NCBI RefSeq assembly: GCF_900109825.1
Contig: NZ_FOBL01000019.1
Span: forward strand, 1-53,884
Source: Alkalibacterium putridalgicola
GTDB taxonomy: Bacteria > Bacillota > Bacilli > Lactobacillales > Carnobacteriaceae_A
DNA length: 53,884 nucleotides
Direction: 5' to 3'
The notes below the pieces were generated by a model that saw only the letters and a program-made list of their open reading frames with translations, was not told where the DNA came from and ran no database searches. Within the stretch, counting starts at the first letter, position 1, and every line of letters starts with the position of its first letter. This document shows positions 50,176 through 53,884 of this stretch, piece after piece. The position numbers were made by a program, and so were the translations under genes.

Positions 50176-50211
50176 AGAGGAGATGCAGGATAATCTGCGT
50201 CTCCTCTTTTT
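50176..50211 (+). terminator. Terminator of the stress-protein gene; docking site of the group II intron
   Basis: AGAGGAGATGCAG and CTGCGTCTCCTCT form the stem (one G.U pair), followed by TTTTTATA. The group II intron begins 4 nt later at 50215. Confidence 0.85.
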
Positions 50212-50426
50212 ATAGTGCGCCCGGCATGGGCGATAACTTGGTGGTGAAAGTCCACTACAGACTTGGCAGTAGGAACTGTTAGCGAAAGACAAGGGTGTCC
50301 GCCGTGAGGCGGAATCTGAAGACAAACTATATGTAGTCAAGAGAAAAATATCATAAAAGTCCGAATTTTCAATCTTGATAAAAAAGTGCATAGTAAATAA
50401 ACCTACAATCTTTTATTAAAAAAAAT

Positions 50427-51608
50427 TCAGGCTAAAGTTTTTTCAATATAAGGAACATTATATTTTAGCAAATGAAAAATAATTCTTACAAGTTTTTTTG
50501 CTACATGAGTTAATGCAACGTTATAGTGTTTTCCTTCTGCTAGTTTTTTATGCAAGTATAATTTAAATAATGGAGAATGAATTGCCACTAGTCTAGCGGC
50601 TTGATGTAAGGCCCAACGTAAAGAAGATGAGCCTCGTTTTACCATTTTACCCTTTCCATCATGGTTCCCGGATTGATGGACCGAAGGCTCCATACCTGCA
50701 AAAGCAAGTAATTGTGCAGGTGTTTTGAAATTATTAATATTTCTTATCTCAGAAATAATAACACTTCCTAAACGATTAGAAATACCAGGAATTGAAGTAA
50801 TAGGAGAAGCAATATCATTCATTAGTGAATTGATTTCTTTATCTACTTTTTTTATTTTTTTATTATAAAACTCTATTATTTCAATCGTTTGTGTCATTTC
50901 TAACTCGAGAATTTTTGAAACTTGTCCAATGGAGTCTTTTGCTAGGTTTCTTATTTCCTGGGCCTTTTCCTTCCCTATTTTTCCTTGAGAGGCTGAAGCA
51001 AGAGTTGATGTTAATGTACTCAAGTGAGAGTTACCTATAGCTTTAGCCGAAGGATAATTTTTAAGTAACGAATAAACATAAGAATGGTGCAAAGAAGTAA
51101 CGTATACAGAAAGCTCTGGAAACACTAAGTCTACAAGTCTTACGTATTGAATTTTCCCTTCGGATTGATAGTGACTTAGTCGTGTTCTATTGCGAGTTAA
51201 GAACTTAAGATCTGTCATTTTTTTATCAGCAGTAAATTTTTCTACTTGGTTGTCACTCATTAATTTTCGAACAATCAATTTGGCATCTTTTTTATCTGTT
51301 TTCGTTTTTCTCAACGTAGTTGATTTAGCAAATTCCTTTATCAAAATAGGATTATAAGTAAATACTGTATATCCTTCATTTCTAAGAAAAGTTAATAGAT
51401 TAAGACTGTAGTGACCGGTATCTTCTAAAGCAATACGTACATTGCTTTTTATTGATCCTTCATCCTGATTTAATATTACGCTACAAAGCGTATTAAATCC
51501 TTTTCTAGTATTGTCTATTGTAAGATGTTCTTTGAGAATTGTTCCATTAGAATCTATAATACAAACATCATGCTTCTTTTGGGAAACATCTATGCCGACA
51601 TTGATCAT
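50427..51608 (-). CDS. IS110-family DEDD transposase/recombinase
   Basis: A 393-residue protein; AGGAGAGG precedes the ATG. The N-terminal RuvC-like DEDD domain has Asp7 (GIDVSQKKHD), Glu62 (ALEDTGHYS) and Asp105/Asp108 (KTDKKDAK). A central coiled coil is followed by the C-terminal Tnp domain with SIPGISNRLGSVIISEI and the serine motif MVKRGSSSLRWALHQAA (Ser327-329) that supplies the attacking serine. The frame is intact, so the element may be active. IS110 enzymes use a bridge RNA to choose target and donor. Confidence 0.94.
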   Translation of the reverse strand: MINVGIDVSQKKHDVCIIDSNGTILKEHLTIDNTRKGFNTLCSVILNQDEGSIKSNVRIALEDTGHYSLNLLTFLRNEGYTVFTYNPILIKEFAKSTTLRKTKTDKKDAKLIVRKLMSDNQVEKFTADKKMTDLKFLTRNRTRLSHYQSEGKIQYVRLVDLVFPELSVYVTSLHHSYVYSLLKNYPSAKAIGNSHLSTLTSTLASASQGKIGKEKAQEIRNLAKDSIGQVSKILELEMTQTIEIIEFYNKKIKKVDKEINSLMNDIASPITSIPGISNRLGSVIISEIRNINNFKTPAQLLAFAGMEPSVHQSGNHDGKGKMVKRGSSSLRWALHQAARLVAIHSPLFKLYLHKKLAEGKHYNVALTHVAKKLVRIIFHLLKYNVPYIEKTLA

Positions 51609-51649
51609 TGAAAATCCTCTCCTAAAAGTATTTGCGCTGCAGTTTCACA

Positions 51650-51825
51650 GGTAATCTTTGTCATCTGGATCCTTGTGTCATATTAAACGTCATGCGTTAA
51701 CAAACTTATTACCAATAAAACAAAGACCTGTGGTTAGAGCCTTCAGAAAACCAGTCATCTCTTAAAAGTGCCGTAAGGAAGTCTACTAATCCACAACGCC
51801 TATAACGATTATAAATGAAATGAAT
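51650..51825 (-). ncRNA. IS110 bridge RNA with readable target and donor guides
   Basis: In transposase orientation, stem TGTGG(A)TTAG (51795-51786) / CTAACCACA (51737-51729) closes a target loop. It contains GACTTCCTT (51783-51775), matching the left target GTCTTCCTT at 8 of 9 positions, and CTGAAG (51746-51741), complementary to the right target CTTCAG. A second stem TCTTTGT (51726-51720) / ACAAAGA (51661-51655) closes a donor loop. It has AGTTTGT (51706-51700), identical to the element's right end, and ACACAAG (51678-51672), complementary to its left end at 6 of 7. RNA boundaries are approximate. Confidence 0.8.
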
Positions 51826-52149
51826 TAGGCTAAAATATTCATTTAATCGTCTATACTCAATATACAAGGAAGACGGACGCAAATGCTTGCACTGACGAAC
51901 AGAAACTTCATACAAAGGCTGAATCAGGACGGATGAGCTTGCTATACAAAGCGAAGTCCGATACTGCCCGAATCCTGTACAGTAAATGAAGCAGTGACAT
52001 GAGCAGAAGGTTGTCGTTCTTACCCGGGGAGGTCTCGTCAGCGCTTAGTAGTAACAACGAATGGCGAGAAGTCAGCCGAGGTCATAGTAGGGAAAATGTA
52101 CCGAAGGACCGAACAATATCAATACTTTAAAGATTGGAGGTTAGGCATT

Positions 52150-53538
52150 ATGGCAAACGCAGAAAACAACCCACGGGTTGGCAAACTACAAAGGGATAAG
52201 CTGGAAGCGAAAGAGTATGTAGATGTGCGGAGTAATCGCCTAGGTGAATGTAAAGACAAGTATGGTGAGTCTCTCATGAGGCTCGTTGTAAGTGAGAAGA
52301 ATCTATTTGAAGCGGCTAAAATTGTTAAACGCAATAAAGGAGCTGCTGGAGTAGATGGTATGACAGTTAATGAAATAGAATCACATATCATGGAAATGAG
52401 TCCGTATTTAAAAAAGAAACTGTTAGACGGTACCTATAAACCACAACCGGTTAGACGGGTGGAAATTCCCAAAGCTAATGGTGGTGTCCGAAAACTGGGT
52501 ATTCCAGTTGTACGGGACCGAGTGATCCAGCAAGCCATCAGGCAAGTAATAGAACCTATCATTGATAAACATTTCTTCCCGCACAGTCATGGGTTCCGCA
52601 AAGGGAAAAGCAATCATACAGCGTTGAAAGAGTGTGTCGGCTATTATCAGCAAGGCTACAAAGTAGCCGTCGACTGTGACCTGAAACAGTGCTTTGACAC
52701 ACTCAATCATGACAAGCTGATGTACTATCTCGAACAGTATATACAGGACAAAATGATTCTTAAAATTATCCGTAAGTTCTTACAGAGCGGTGTCATAGAT
52801 CTGTCTGGCGAATTCGTAGAAAGTAACACAGGCGCACCACAAGGTGGCGTGATTTCGCCCCTACTCAGTAACGTATACTTACATGAACTGGATAAAGAAA
52901 TGAAGCAGAGAGGACACCGTTTCGTCCGGTTCGCTGATGACTTCGTCATCTTTGTGAAGTCAAAACGAGCCGGTGAACGTGTGCTCCAAAGTATCACTCG
53001 CTTCATTGAAAAAGACCTGAAACTAACTGTCAACCAAGAGAAAAGTAAAGTGGGTTCACCAACGCGTTTAAAGTTCTTGGGTTGTCTGATAACCACAGTG
53101 AATGGGGTCTGTCGATACAGACCTTCGAACGAAGCCAAAGCGAAATTCATTCGTACCTTGAAACGCTTGACCAAACGTAAGCGAGCAGGGAAGTTTGATG
53201 AGATTGTCAAAGAGATAAACAGCCGAACAAGAGGCTGGATAAATTACTTCGGCACAGGTTTCATCAAAACCTTCGTAACGAAAGTGGAGCAATGGCTCCA
53301 CCACCGTATCAGGCAACTAATTTTAAAGAGATGGAAAAATCCACGTACTAAGATTAGTAGATTAATGCGTTTAGGTCTAGATATAGACAGTGCTAAGCGC
53401 ATTGGCTATTCCAGAAAGAAATACTGGAGACTGTCAAAAACACCTGAGGTTCATTGGGTGCTTACAACGAAAAGACTCTACCGGTGGAACGTAGTTTCAC
53501 TACGTAACCTGGCAGAGTCTGCTTACTTAAGATATTGA
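52150..53538 (+). CDS. ltrA: Group II intron reverse transcriptase/maturase
   Basis: A 462-residue protein; ATG 52150 follows TGGAGGTTAGG, and the frame upstream lies in intron RNA. RT blocks: NKGAAGVDGMTV (RT1), RRVEIPKANGGVRKLGIP (RT2), FRKGKSNHTAL, CDLKQCFDTLNHD (RT3), GAPQGGVISPLLSNVYLHELD (RT4), FADD at 261-264 (RT5), and LKFLG. Domain X follows (RTRGWINYFG...RKKYWRLSKTPEVH). There is no HNH endonuclease domain. The frame is intact, but its own RNA is broken, so it could only work in trans. Confidence 0.93.
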   Translation: MANAENNPRVGKLQRDKLEAKEYVDVRSNRLGECKDKYGESLMRLVVSEKNLFEAAKIVKRNKGAAGVDGMTVNEIESHIMEMSPYLKKKLLDGTYKPQPVRRVEIPKANGGVRKLGIPVVRDRVIQQAIRQVIEPIIDKHFFPHSHGFRKGKSNHTALKECVGYYQQGYKVAVDCDLKQCFDTLNHDKLMYYLEQYIQDKMILKIIRKFLQSGVIDLSGEFVESNTGAPQGGVISPLLSNVYLHELDKEMKQRGHRFVRFADDFVIFVKSKRAGERVLQSITRFIEKDLKLTVNQEKSKVGSPTRLKFLGCLITTVNGVCRYRPSNEAKAKFIRTLKRLTKRKRAGKFDEIVKEINSRTRGWINYFGTGFIKTFVTKVEQWLHHRIRQLILKRWKNPRTKISRLMRLGLDIDSAKRIGYSRKKYWRLSKTPEVHWVLTTKRLYRWNVVSLRNLAESAYLRY

Positions 53539-53562
53539 ACCGCCGTATACGGAACCGTACGT

Positions 53563-53884
53563 CAGACTGTCTAACAAACAAGAGATATTTCGAGATATTT
53601 TGAGCCTTAATAAGATATAATAGTAGAAACTAGATTAACAGAGGTGAACTGTAAATGAGTATCTTCCATAGCTTTTCAAGAGACCAAATAAGTTTCCAAT
53701 TACTTTCTTTAGACGAAATGATAGGAAAAGAAAATCCTGTTCGAGCTATTGACTCTTTCGTTGAATCGCTTGATTTAAGTGAGATGGGAATTAAGGAATA
53801 TAAGAAACATAATCCTGGTCAGCAGCCTTACGAGAGAAAGGATTTACTCAAATTATTCATTTACGGCTATTTAAATAAAATTAG
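53563..53884 (+). mobile_element. IS1182-like insertion sequence, left part (runs off window)
   Basis: The group II intron domain V stops abruptly and is followed by CAGACTGTCTAACAAAC, a possible terminal repeat, then a promoter-like AT-rich leader (TTAATAAGATATAATAG at about 53608) and a transposase start at 53655. The right end is outside the window, so terminal repeats and target duplication cannot be checked. Confidence 0.75.
53655..53884 (+). CDS. IS1182-family transposase, N-terminal fragment
   Basis: The first 76 codons are present, cut by the window end; AGAGGTGA precedes the ATG. SFSRDQISFQLLSLDEMIG, NPVRAIDSFVESLDL and PYERKDLLKLFIYGYLNKI match the N-terminal DUF772-type domain of IS1182/IS5-group DDE transposases. 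The catalytic residues lie beyond the window. Confidence 0.85.
   Translation, partial: MSIFHSFSRDQISFQLLSLDEMIGKENPVRAIDSFVESLDLSEMGIKEYKKHNPGQQPYERKDLLKLFIYGYLNKI

Follow-up and report, generated by a model that had tools for sequence, protein, structure and literature searches.

The locus and its insertion sequence

The window analysed here, a stretch of 53,884 nt from Alkalibacterium putridalgicola (contig NZ_FOBL01000019.1), contains an IS110-group insertion sequence (IS) that occupies positions 50322-51868, counted with one copy of its core dinucleotide, and interrupts a group II intron within domain I. The features of the locus, with the source of each assignment, are as follows:

50176-50207: terminator-like hairpin, directly after which the 5' part of the intron starts (terminator scan)
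50215..50321, plus strand: 5' portion of the group II intron that hosts the IS; its last two bases are the core AG (aligns with the intact introns L149-L151)
50315..50321, minus strand: right target including the core, CT TCAGA (right-target guide matches 7/7)
50320-50321 and 51867-51868: core dinucleotide, AG on the plus and CT on the minus strand
50322..50426, minus strand: right end (RE) of the IS, 105 nt (similar RE ends in the family; two copies of the lineage)
in the RE, adjoining the core, minus strand: left donor ATAGTTTGT
50335..50340, minus strand: TTGACT, candidate -35 box (17-nt spacing to the box in the left end)
50427..51608, minus strand: IS110 transposase/recombinase, open frame of 393 aa (Pfam, NCBIfam, PDB chains)
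51609..51868, minus strand: left end (LE) of the IS, 260 nt, with the core CT at 51868-51867
51647..51803, minus strand: bridge RNA scaffold, target-binding loop followed by donor-binding loop (covariance model, scaffold covariation)
51672..51676, minus strand: right-donor guide ACAAG (pairs with CTTGT at the LE)
51700..51706, minus strand: left-donor guide AGTTTGT (7/7 to the RE end; covaries with the left donor in the family)
51741..51747, minus strand: right-target guide TCTGAAG (7/7)
51776..51783, minus strand: left-target guide GACTTCCT (7/8 to its own intron, 8/8 to GAAGTC introns)
51804..51851, minus strand: predicted 5' stem-loop of the bridge RNA (minimum free energy fold, weak alone)
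51859..51864, minus strand: TATATT, candidate -10 box (junction spacing)
51869..51874, minus strand: left target GTCTTC in intron domain I (comparison with intact introns)
51869..53562, plus strand: 3' part of the host intron, cut short, presumably inside domain V (RF02001, RF01998)
52096-53538, plus strand: reverse transcriptase/maturase (PF00078, TIGR04416)

The transposase matches both Pfam families of the group (PF01548, 7.1e-35; PF02371, 4.7e-24), with its DEDD_Tnp_IS110 and Transposase_20 domains scoring 120.5 and 85 bits, both above the cut-offs, and it reaches 214 bits against NCBIfam NF033542, for which the cut-off is 140. It also aligns with the IS621 and ISCro4 chains in the PDB. 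In the phmmer alignment with IS621 chain 8wt6, whose numbering offset of 2 was applied by hand, residues D7, E62, D105, D108 and S313 correspond to D11, E60, D102, D105 and S241. An LE longer than the RE (260 versus 105 nt), with the match to the bridge RNA model lying in the LE, is the layout of the IS110 group. Assignment to the IS1111 group was rejected on the 105-nt RE and the position of the scaffold in the LE, sub-terminal inverted repeats being judged by eye only. The first-pass annotation had given the left end a length of 260 nt and a CT core, and these assignments, like its coordinates, are borne out here.

One full copy of the IS is present in the host genome. The complete transposases found are ~55% identical or less, so that the earlier description of a new IS110 lineage is a fair one; a relative with 79% identity is a 5'-truncated transposase fragment. 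WP_142426437.1, encoded on NZ_CP121168.1, and similar IS110 transposases of Lactobacillales and Bacillales share 51-54% identity in a five-protein alignment. A single-protein scan of genome contigs returned no relative, but a profile scan did recover relatives. No match to the element was found in a search of phage DNA, and in viral contigs neither the long form of the RE junction pattern nor the LE junction pattern occurs; the short RE pattern is present in 10 stretches and the intact-site pattern in 12, as pattern matches alone.

The host intron and the empty site

The sequences flanking the IS carry the features of a group II intron, namely its RNA domains, a reverse transcriptase/maturase and a position behind a terminator hairpin. 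The Rfam RF02001 match starts at 51866 and is followed by RF01998; at the gathering score of Rfam 15 the LE has no match other than the first bases of this intron match. The intron is probably of class C, an assignment made on features that we take to be characteristic of that class, including the location after a terminator hairpin.

The first-pass annotation had proposed that the broken intron reveals the target as it was before insertion, and comparison with intact introns now confirms this. CTGAAGGAAG is uninterrupted in three intact introns (Aerococcus tenax, Paenibacillus sonchi and Staphylococcus simulans) at the place where the window is split, and this read-through defines the element with one core copy as 50322-51868. 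The empty site, read on the minus strand, is GTCTTC-CT-TCAGA. Base 50321, in the core, is the stop point in 37 of 40 plasmid rows among the matches listed (154 records matched). At its other end, the host intron leaves the match with two intact introns after CCGTACGT, at ~53562, a cut that we take to lie within domain V. Insertion of the IS and this 3' cut together leave the host intron with two breaks. Further downstream, a reading frame that starts at 53655 runs off the window and has no Pfam match in its first 76 aa.

Among 27 genomes of the host's family, the intact intron site was found at 55 places in 10 genomes, with none in the host itself. By hand count these comprise 21 with GAAGTC, 20 with GAAGAC (as in the window), 11 with GAAGCT, 2 with GAAGAT and 1 with GAAGTT. 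Elsewhere in the host genome, an unoccupied GTCTTC-CT-TCAGA lies in an apparent membrane-protein coding frame (L192, G000:C16:10806-10818).

A conserved bridge RNA scaffold in the left end

Relatives of the element were gathered by profile scans (80 loci kept in one and 32 loci in another), from other protein matches and from plasmid records. A transposase match was present at 138 of 144 loci, of which 51 were successfully delimited. These yielded 44 distinct left flanks, and for 23 of the 44 there was a right flank as well; the remaining 87 of the 138 were dropped because their ends or loop were unrecognised or cut off. Ends were fixed by motifs that are independent of the guides.

A covariance model built from the LEs of 23 relatives, chosen by hand for spread among the delimited elements and with the window left out, matches 51647-51803 at 106.3 bits (E 2.6e-26), its sole match up to E 1. 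The underlying alignment of 23 LEs, again without the window, contains 23 base pairs, 12 of which show compensatory changes. Within the scaffold, 96.4% of the cells are paired, compared with 90.7% after shuffling and 33-46% with slid partners. Since the matches of the model are homologues, they speak for a conserved scaffold held in common rather than for transcription. The fold energy of the region is ordinary (z -1.36, with 20 of 200 shuffles folding as well) and was dropped as evidence; support for the structure is drawn from covariation. The two-loop bridge RNA that the first-pass annotation had read in the LE, in the order known from IS621, is supported by a model trained without the window, by covariation of both scaffold and guides, by the spacing of candidate promoter elements across the circle junction, and by two more REs of the lineage at the same intron site.

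Donor guides and the circle junction

Both donor guides fit the ends of the element. The 7/7 match to the right element end that had been reported earlier stands, and the right-donor guide ACAAG matches the LE at 5/5 contiguous positions, or at the 6/7 given previously when extended. Across the family, 43 of 44 distinct elements have a right-donor guide (CAAG, TAAG, CGAG or TATG) that tracks the LE (CTTG, CTTA, CTCG or CATA, respectively), the lone miss (L012) being, by eye, an extraction error. Left-donor guides were scored by script as perfect against the RE in 19 of 25 elements. Of the six imperfect cases, L035, L036, L040 and L051 are by eye extraction errors whose guides fit their own ends, leaving L045 and L029 (one base) as true mismatches. 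The variants AGTTTG, AGTTAG, AGTTCG and AGAATG are each paired with their own end. In L045 (S. gallolyticus BI02) the guide AGAATG misfits its own RE, AGTTTG, a discrepancy that could reflect recombination or a chimaeric assembly.

In a circle with joined ends, TTGAC in the RE and TATATT or TATTAT in the LE would be separated by 17 nt in 24 of 25 distinct two-ended elements and by 16 nt in the other. In the latter, L040, the core was read as CC, perhaps through mis-assignment. This spacing is divided between the RE and LE arms as 13+2 in 16 elements, 15+0 in eight and 12+2 in one, so that between the two common arrangements a shift of 2 nt in one arm is compensated in the opposite arm. The informative part of this result is the spacing alone, because the RE motif itself contains TTGAC and the LEs were found by type. 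Boxes and spacing together constitute a candidate promoter across the RE-LE junction, predicted from sequence. In the portion of their account consulted, Durrant et al. 2024 (PMC11208160) describe how a promoter is re-formed across the core that joins RE and LE.

Target guides

The left-target guide GACTTCCT matches GTCTTCCT at 7/8 positions with one mismatch, and the right-target guide TCTGAAG matches the reverse complement of CTTCAGA at 7/7. The left-target match recognised in the first-pass annotation is real, although its value of 8/9 becomes 7/8 since the former counts the T after the core; the right-target match, previously 6/6, lengthens to 7/7. When both strands of the window are considered, one CT site out of 6,561 passes the thresholds for both target guides. 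Against the 44 left flanks of the family, the window's left-target guide scores 7/8 with its own flank and with two others, whereas its right-target guide reaches 7/7 with its own flank and at most 5/7 with the other right flanks. The left-target match is the weaker evidence, because two other flanks of the 44 attain the same score.

Across the family, guides and flanks of the same element match better than re-paired ones. The mean left-target score is 5.30 of 7 against 4.33 (sd 0.12) after re-pairing (n = 44), and the right-target score is 5.87 of 7 against 4.88 (sd 0.15; n = 23); in neither case do any of 20,000 re-pairings reach the observed value. Some of the 44 rows are near relatives or copies in one genome, and re-pairing leaves some relatedness in. 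Both results hold if re-pairing is confined to left-end types, if each loop contributes a single row (32 and 19 rows) and if the window is left out, and controls using the opposite strand or the other half of the loop give 2.6-3.8 of 7. Family copies that have one target loop are found at sites of varying, often partial match. In the TTTCTACCCCCC group, in which eight flanks share a common target loop, the left-target match is 4-6 of 7, which implies that specificity may be loose, with mismatches seemingly tolerated.

The left-target guide of the window fits the GAAGTC variant of the intron at 8/8, better than the 7/8 of its own host. This suggests, at the level of sequence, that the guide is adjusted to the family of introns rather than to a single locus. 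Two further groups of relatives may be recorded here. L012, L039, L041 and other relatives from Streptococcus, Enterococcus and Lactococcus have left-target guides without the CT core (e.g. ..CTCC-AATCGC). Three Bacillales elements (L035, L036 and L040) have a common left target, GTCCCAG[A/C], which their guides match.

Comparison with known IS110 systems

In guide layout, core, LE location and junction promoter the element is as published for IS621. The portions of the two IS621 papers used for comparison (Durrant et al. 2024, PMC11208160; Hiraizumi et al. 2024, PMC11208158, which also describes IS621 and its bridge RNA) give an RNA borne by the LE, with a 5' stem-loop, target loop and donor loop in that order. 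They also give left guides that pair with the bottom strand and right guides that pair with the top strand, a CT core, a DEDD motif with a catalytic Ser, a promoter at the RE-LE junction and a short ATA/TAT sub-terminal pattern; all of these are paralleled here. Nevertheless, the protein is distant from that of IS621 (phmmer, 74 bits in two stretches), the LE here is 260 nt long and the target is a group II intron, in contrast to the REP target given for IS621 in the same portions. Many left-target guides of the present family also lack the CT core, which the IS621 left-target guide is described there as including. The right-donor pairing set out for IS621 in those portions is discontinuous, with two stretches and flipped bases, whereas ACAAG here is contiguous, with no convincing second segment by eye.

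The seekRNAs of IS110/IS1111 elements (Siddiquee et al. 2024, PMC11187229) are, in the part of that paper drawn upon, likewise derived from a non-coding region (NCR) and contain target-matching stretches, and in the IS110 type this NCR precedes the transposase, but the elements and targets are others. IS621, ISPpu9, ISPpu10 and ISPa11, which target REP sequences (Tobes and Pareja 2006, PMC1525189, as consulted in part), are also IS110s found in repeated sequences, although the repeat in the present case is a retroelement. IS110s of the WP_142426437.1 type have the same bridge RNA scaffold and similar ends and core. The word 'intron' is absent from the main texts of Durrant et al. 2024 (PMC11208160) and Siddiquee et al. 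2024 (PMC11187229), and a literature search, with most subscription papers outside its reach, found no report of an IS110 element targeting group II introns. As far as could be searched, both the lineage and the use of a group II intron as an IS110 target are new.

Proposed mode of insertion

Taken together, it is very probable that this is a complete IS110-group IS which uses a bridge RNA from its LE and inserts into group II introns, probably of class C, always in the same orientation and at a conserved point of domain I. The element ends, the empty site, the homology of the scaffold, the covarying complementarity of the guides and two more REs at the same site can each be read from the sequences compared. 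By analogy with IS621, the element would be excised as a circle, whose joined RE-LE junction would create the promoter TTGACT-17-TATATT and thereby drive the bridge RNA. The recombinase would then hold GTCTTC-CT-TCAGA of the intron in the first loop of this RNA and the element's own junction in the second, with strand exchange expected at CT.

It could be argued that the element is defunct and no longer moves, its pairing being the fossil of a past insertion, given that the genome has one full copy, that the second copy is a remnant and that the host intron is also cut short. Such an explanation is conceivable and rather unlikely, as the 393-aa frame is open, five catalytic positions are present, and the ends, junction boxes and guides have been conserved.

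Occupancy of the same intron position

Two other REs of the lineage occur at the same intron position. One follows CTGAAG of a group II intron elsewhere in the host genome (G000:C71) and the other lies on the Jeotgalibaca plasmid NZ_CP090984.1, where element and intron flank together are 73.6% identical over 743 aligned positions; both copies keep the RE only, without an LE. Pattern searches found no fourth occupied intron among 395 genomes of the order (two with matches, at the three known places), 398 genomes of the class (one with a match; this sample partly overlaps that of the order) or, with up to two mismatches, 76 genomes of the Jeotgalibaca family (one with a match). Further copies may exist, because these searches covered one genome per species. 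Downstream, the intron motif TTCAGATTCC is absent from 75 listed loci with the exception of the window element and the Jeotgalibaca copy, each of which is represented twice among those loci. Rfam scans of the relatives detected no group II intron, a weak negative because in L002 and L006 the scans also missed the 5' portion of the intron.

These occupancies have led to consideration of two histories. In the first, a Lactobacillales clade of IS110 elements would have adopted group IIC introns as its home, with a guide that encodes a common domain I sequence. This is somewhat the better bet, and it rests on the sequences of three occupied introns. In the second, the bridge RNA is present, but all three occupied introns go back to a single ancestral insertion, after which the IS-bearing intron was copied. 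The number of known cases, three, would suit such a history, as would the roughly equal divergence of the Jeotgalibaca copy from the window in intron and RE (identities of 79/114 and 90/132). The copy at C71 fits it less neatly, having fewer differences in its intron (5/107; identity 102/107) than in its RE (14/114; identity 100/114), although this is not significant (Fisher p 0.055). A single event is also hard to reconcile with the sequences upstream of the three introns, which are 53, 50 and 47% identical, no more alike than shuffled controls (48, 49 and 47%), and with the match of the window's guide to its site. Furthermore, a group II intron interrupted in domain I should, as a matter of general knowledge, neither splice nor retrohome. 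Copying of one occupied intron is consequently regarded as improbable, and separate insertions are likely but not proved by these sequence comparisons. Least credible by a wide margin is the proposal that the complementarity is fortuitous and that targets are chosen by protein contacts only, for, although a 7/8 left-target match is not rare among pyrimidine-rich flanks (two others of 44), no re-pairing in 20,000 reaches the family scores, right-donor guides match in 43 of 44 elements, one CT site in 6,561 in the window passes both target guides, and IS621 offers a precedent in the part of PMC11208160 consulted.

Implications

The locus provides a naturally occurring pair of guide and target, whose empty site is known independently, in an IS110 lineage of Gram-positive bacteria that is distant from IS621. 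The element and its relatives together supply a resource of 44 left-flank and 23 right-flank natural pairs of guide and target. Bridge recombinases are under development for programmable insertion, and for this use a scaffold from Bacilli whose right-target guide spans 7 bp offers a helpful point of reference.

For the family itself, the finding describes an RNA-guided element settled inside another mobile element. If the adoption of group IIC introns as a home is correct, a guide encoding a common domain I sequence would allow the element to follow a mobile retroelement between genomes whilst sparing host genes. Each arrival would disable an intron, and the relationship would be one of predation, by a transposon guided by RNA on a mobile element catalysed by RNA.
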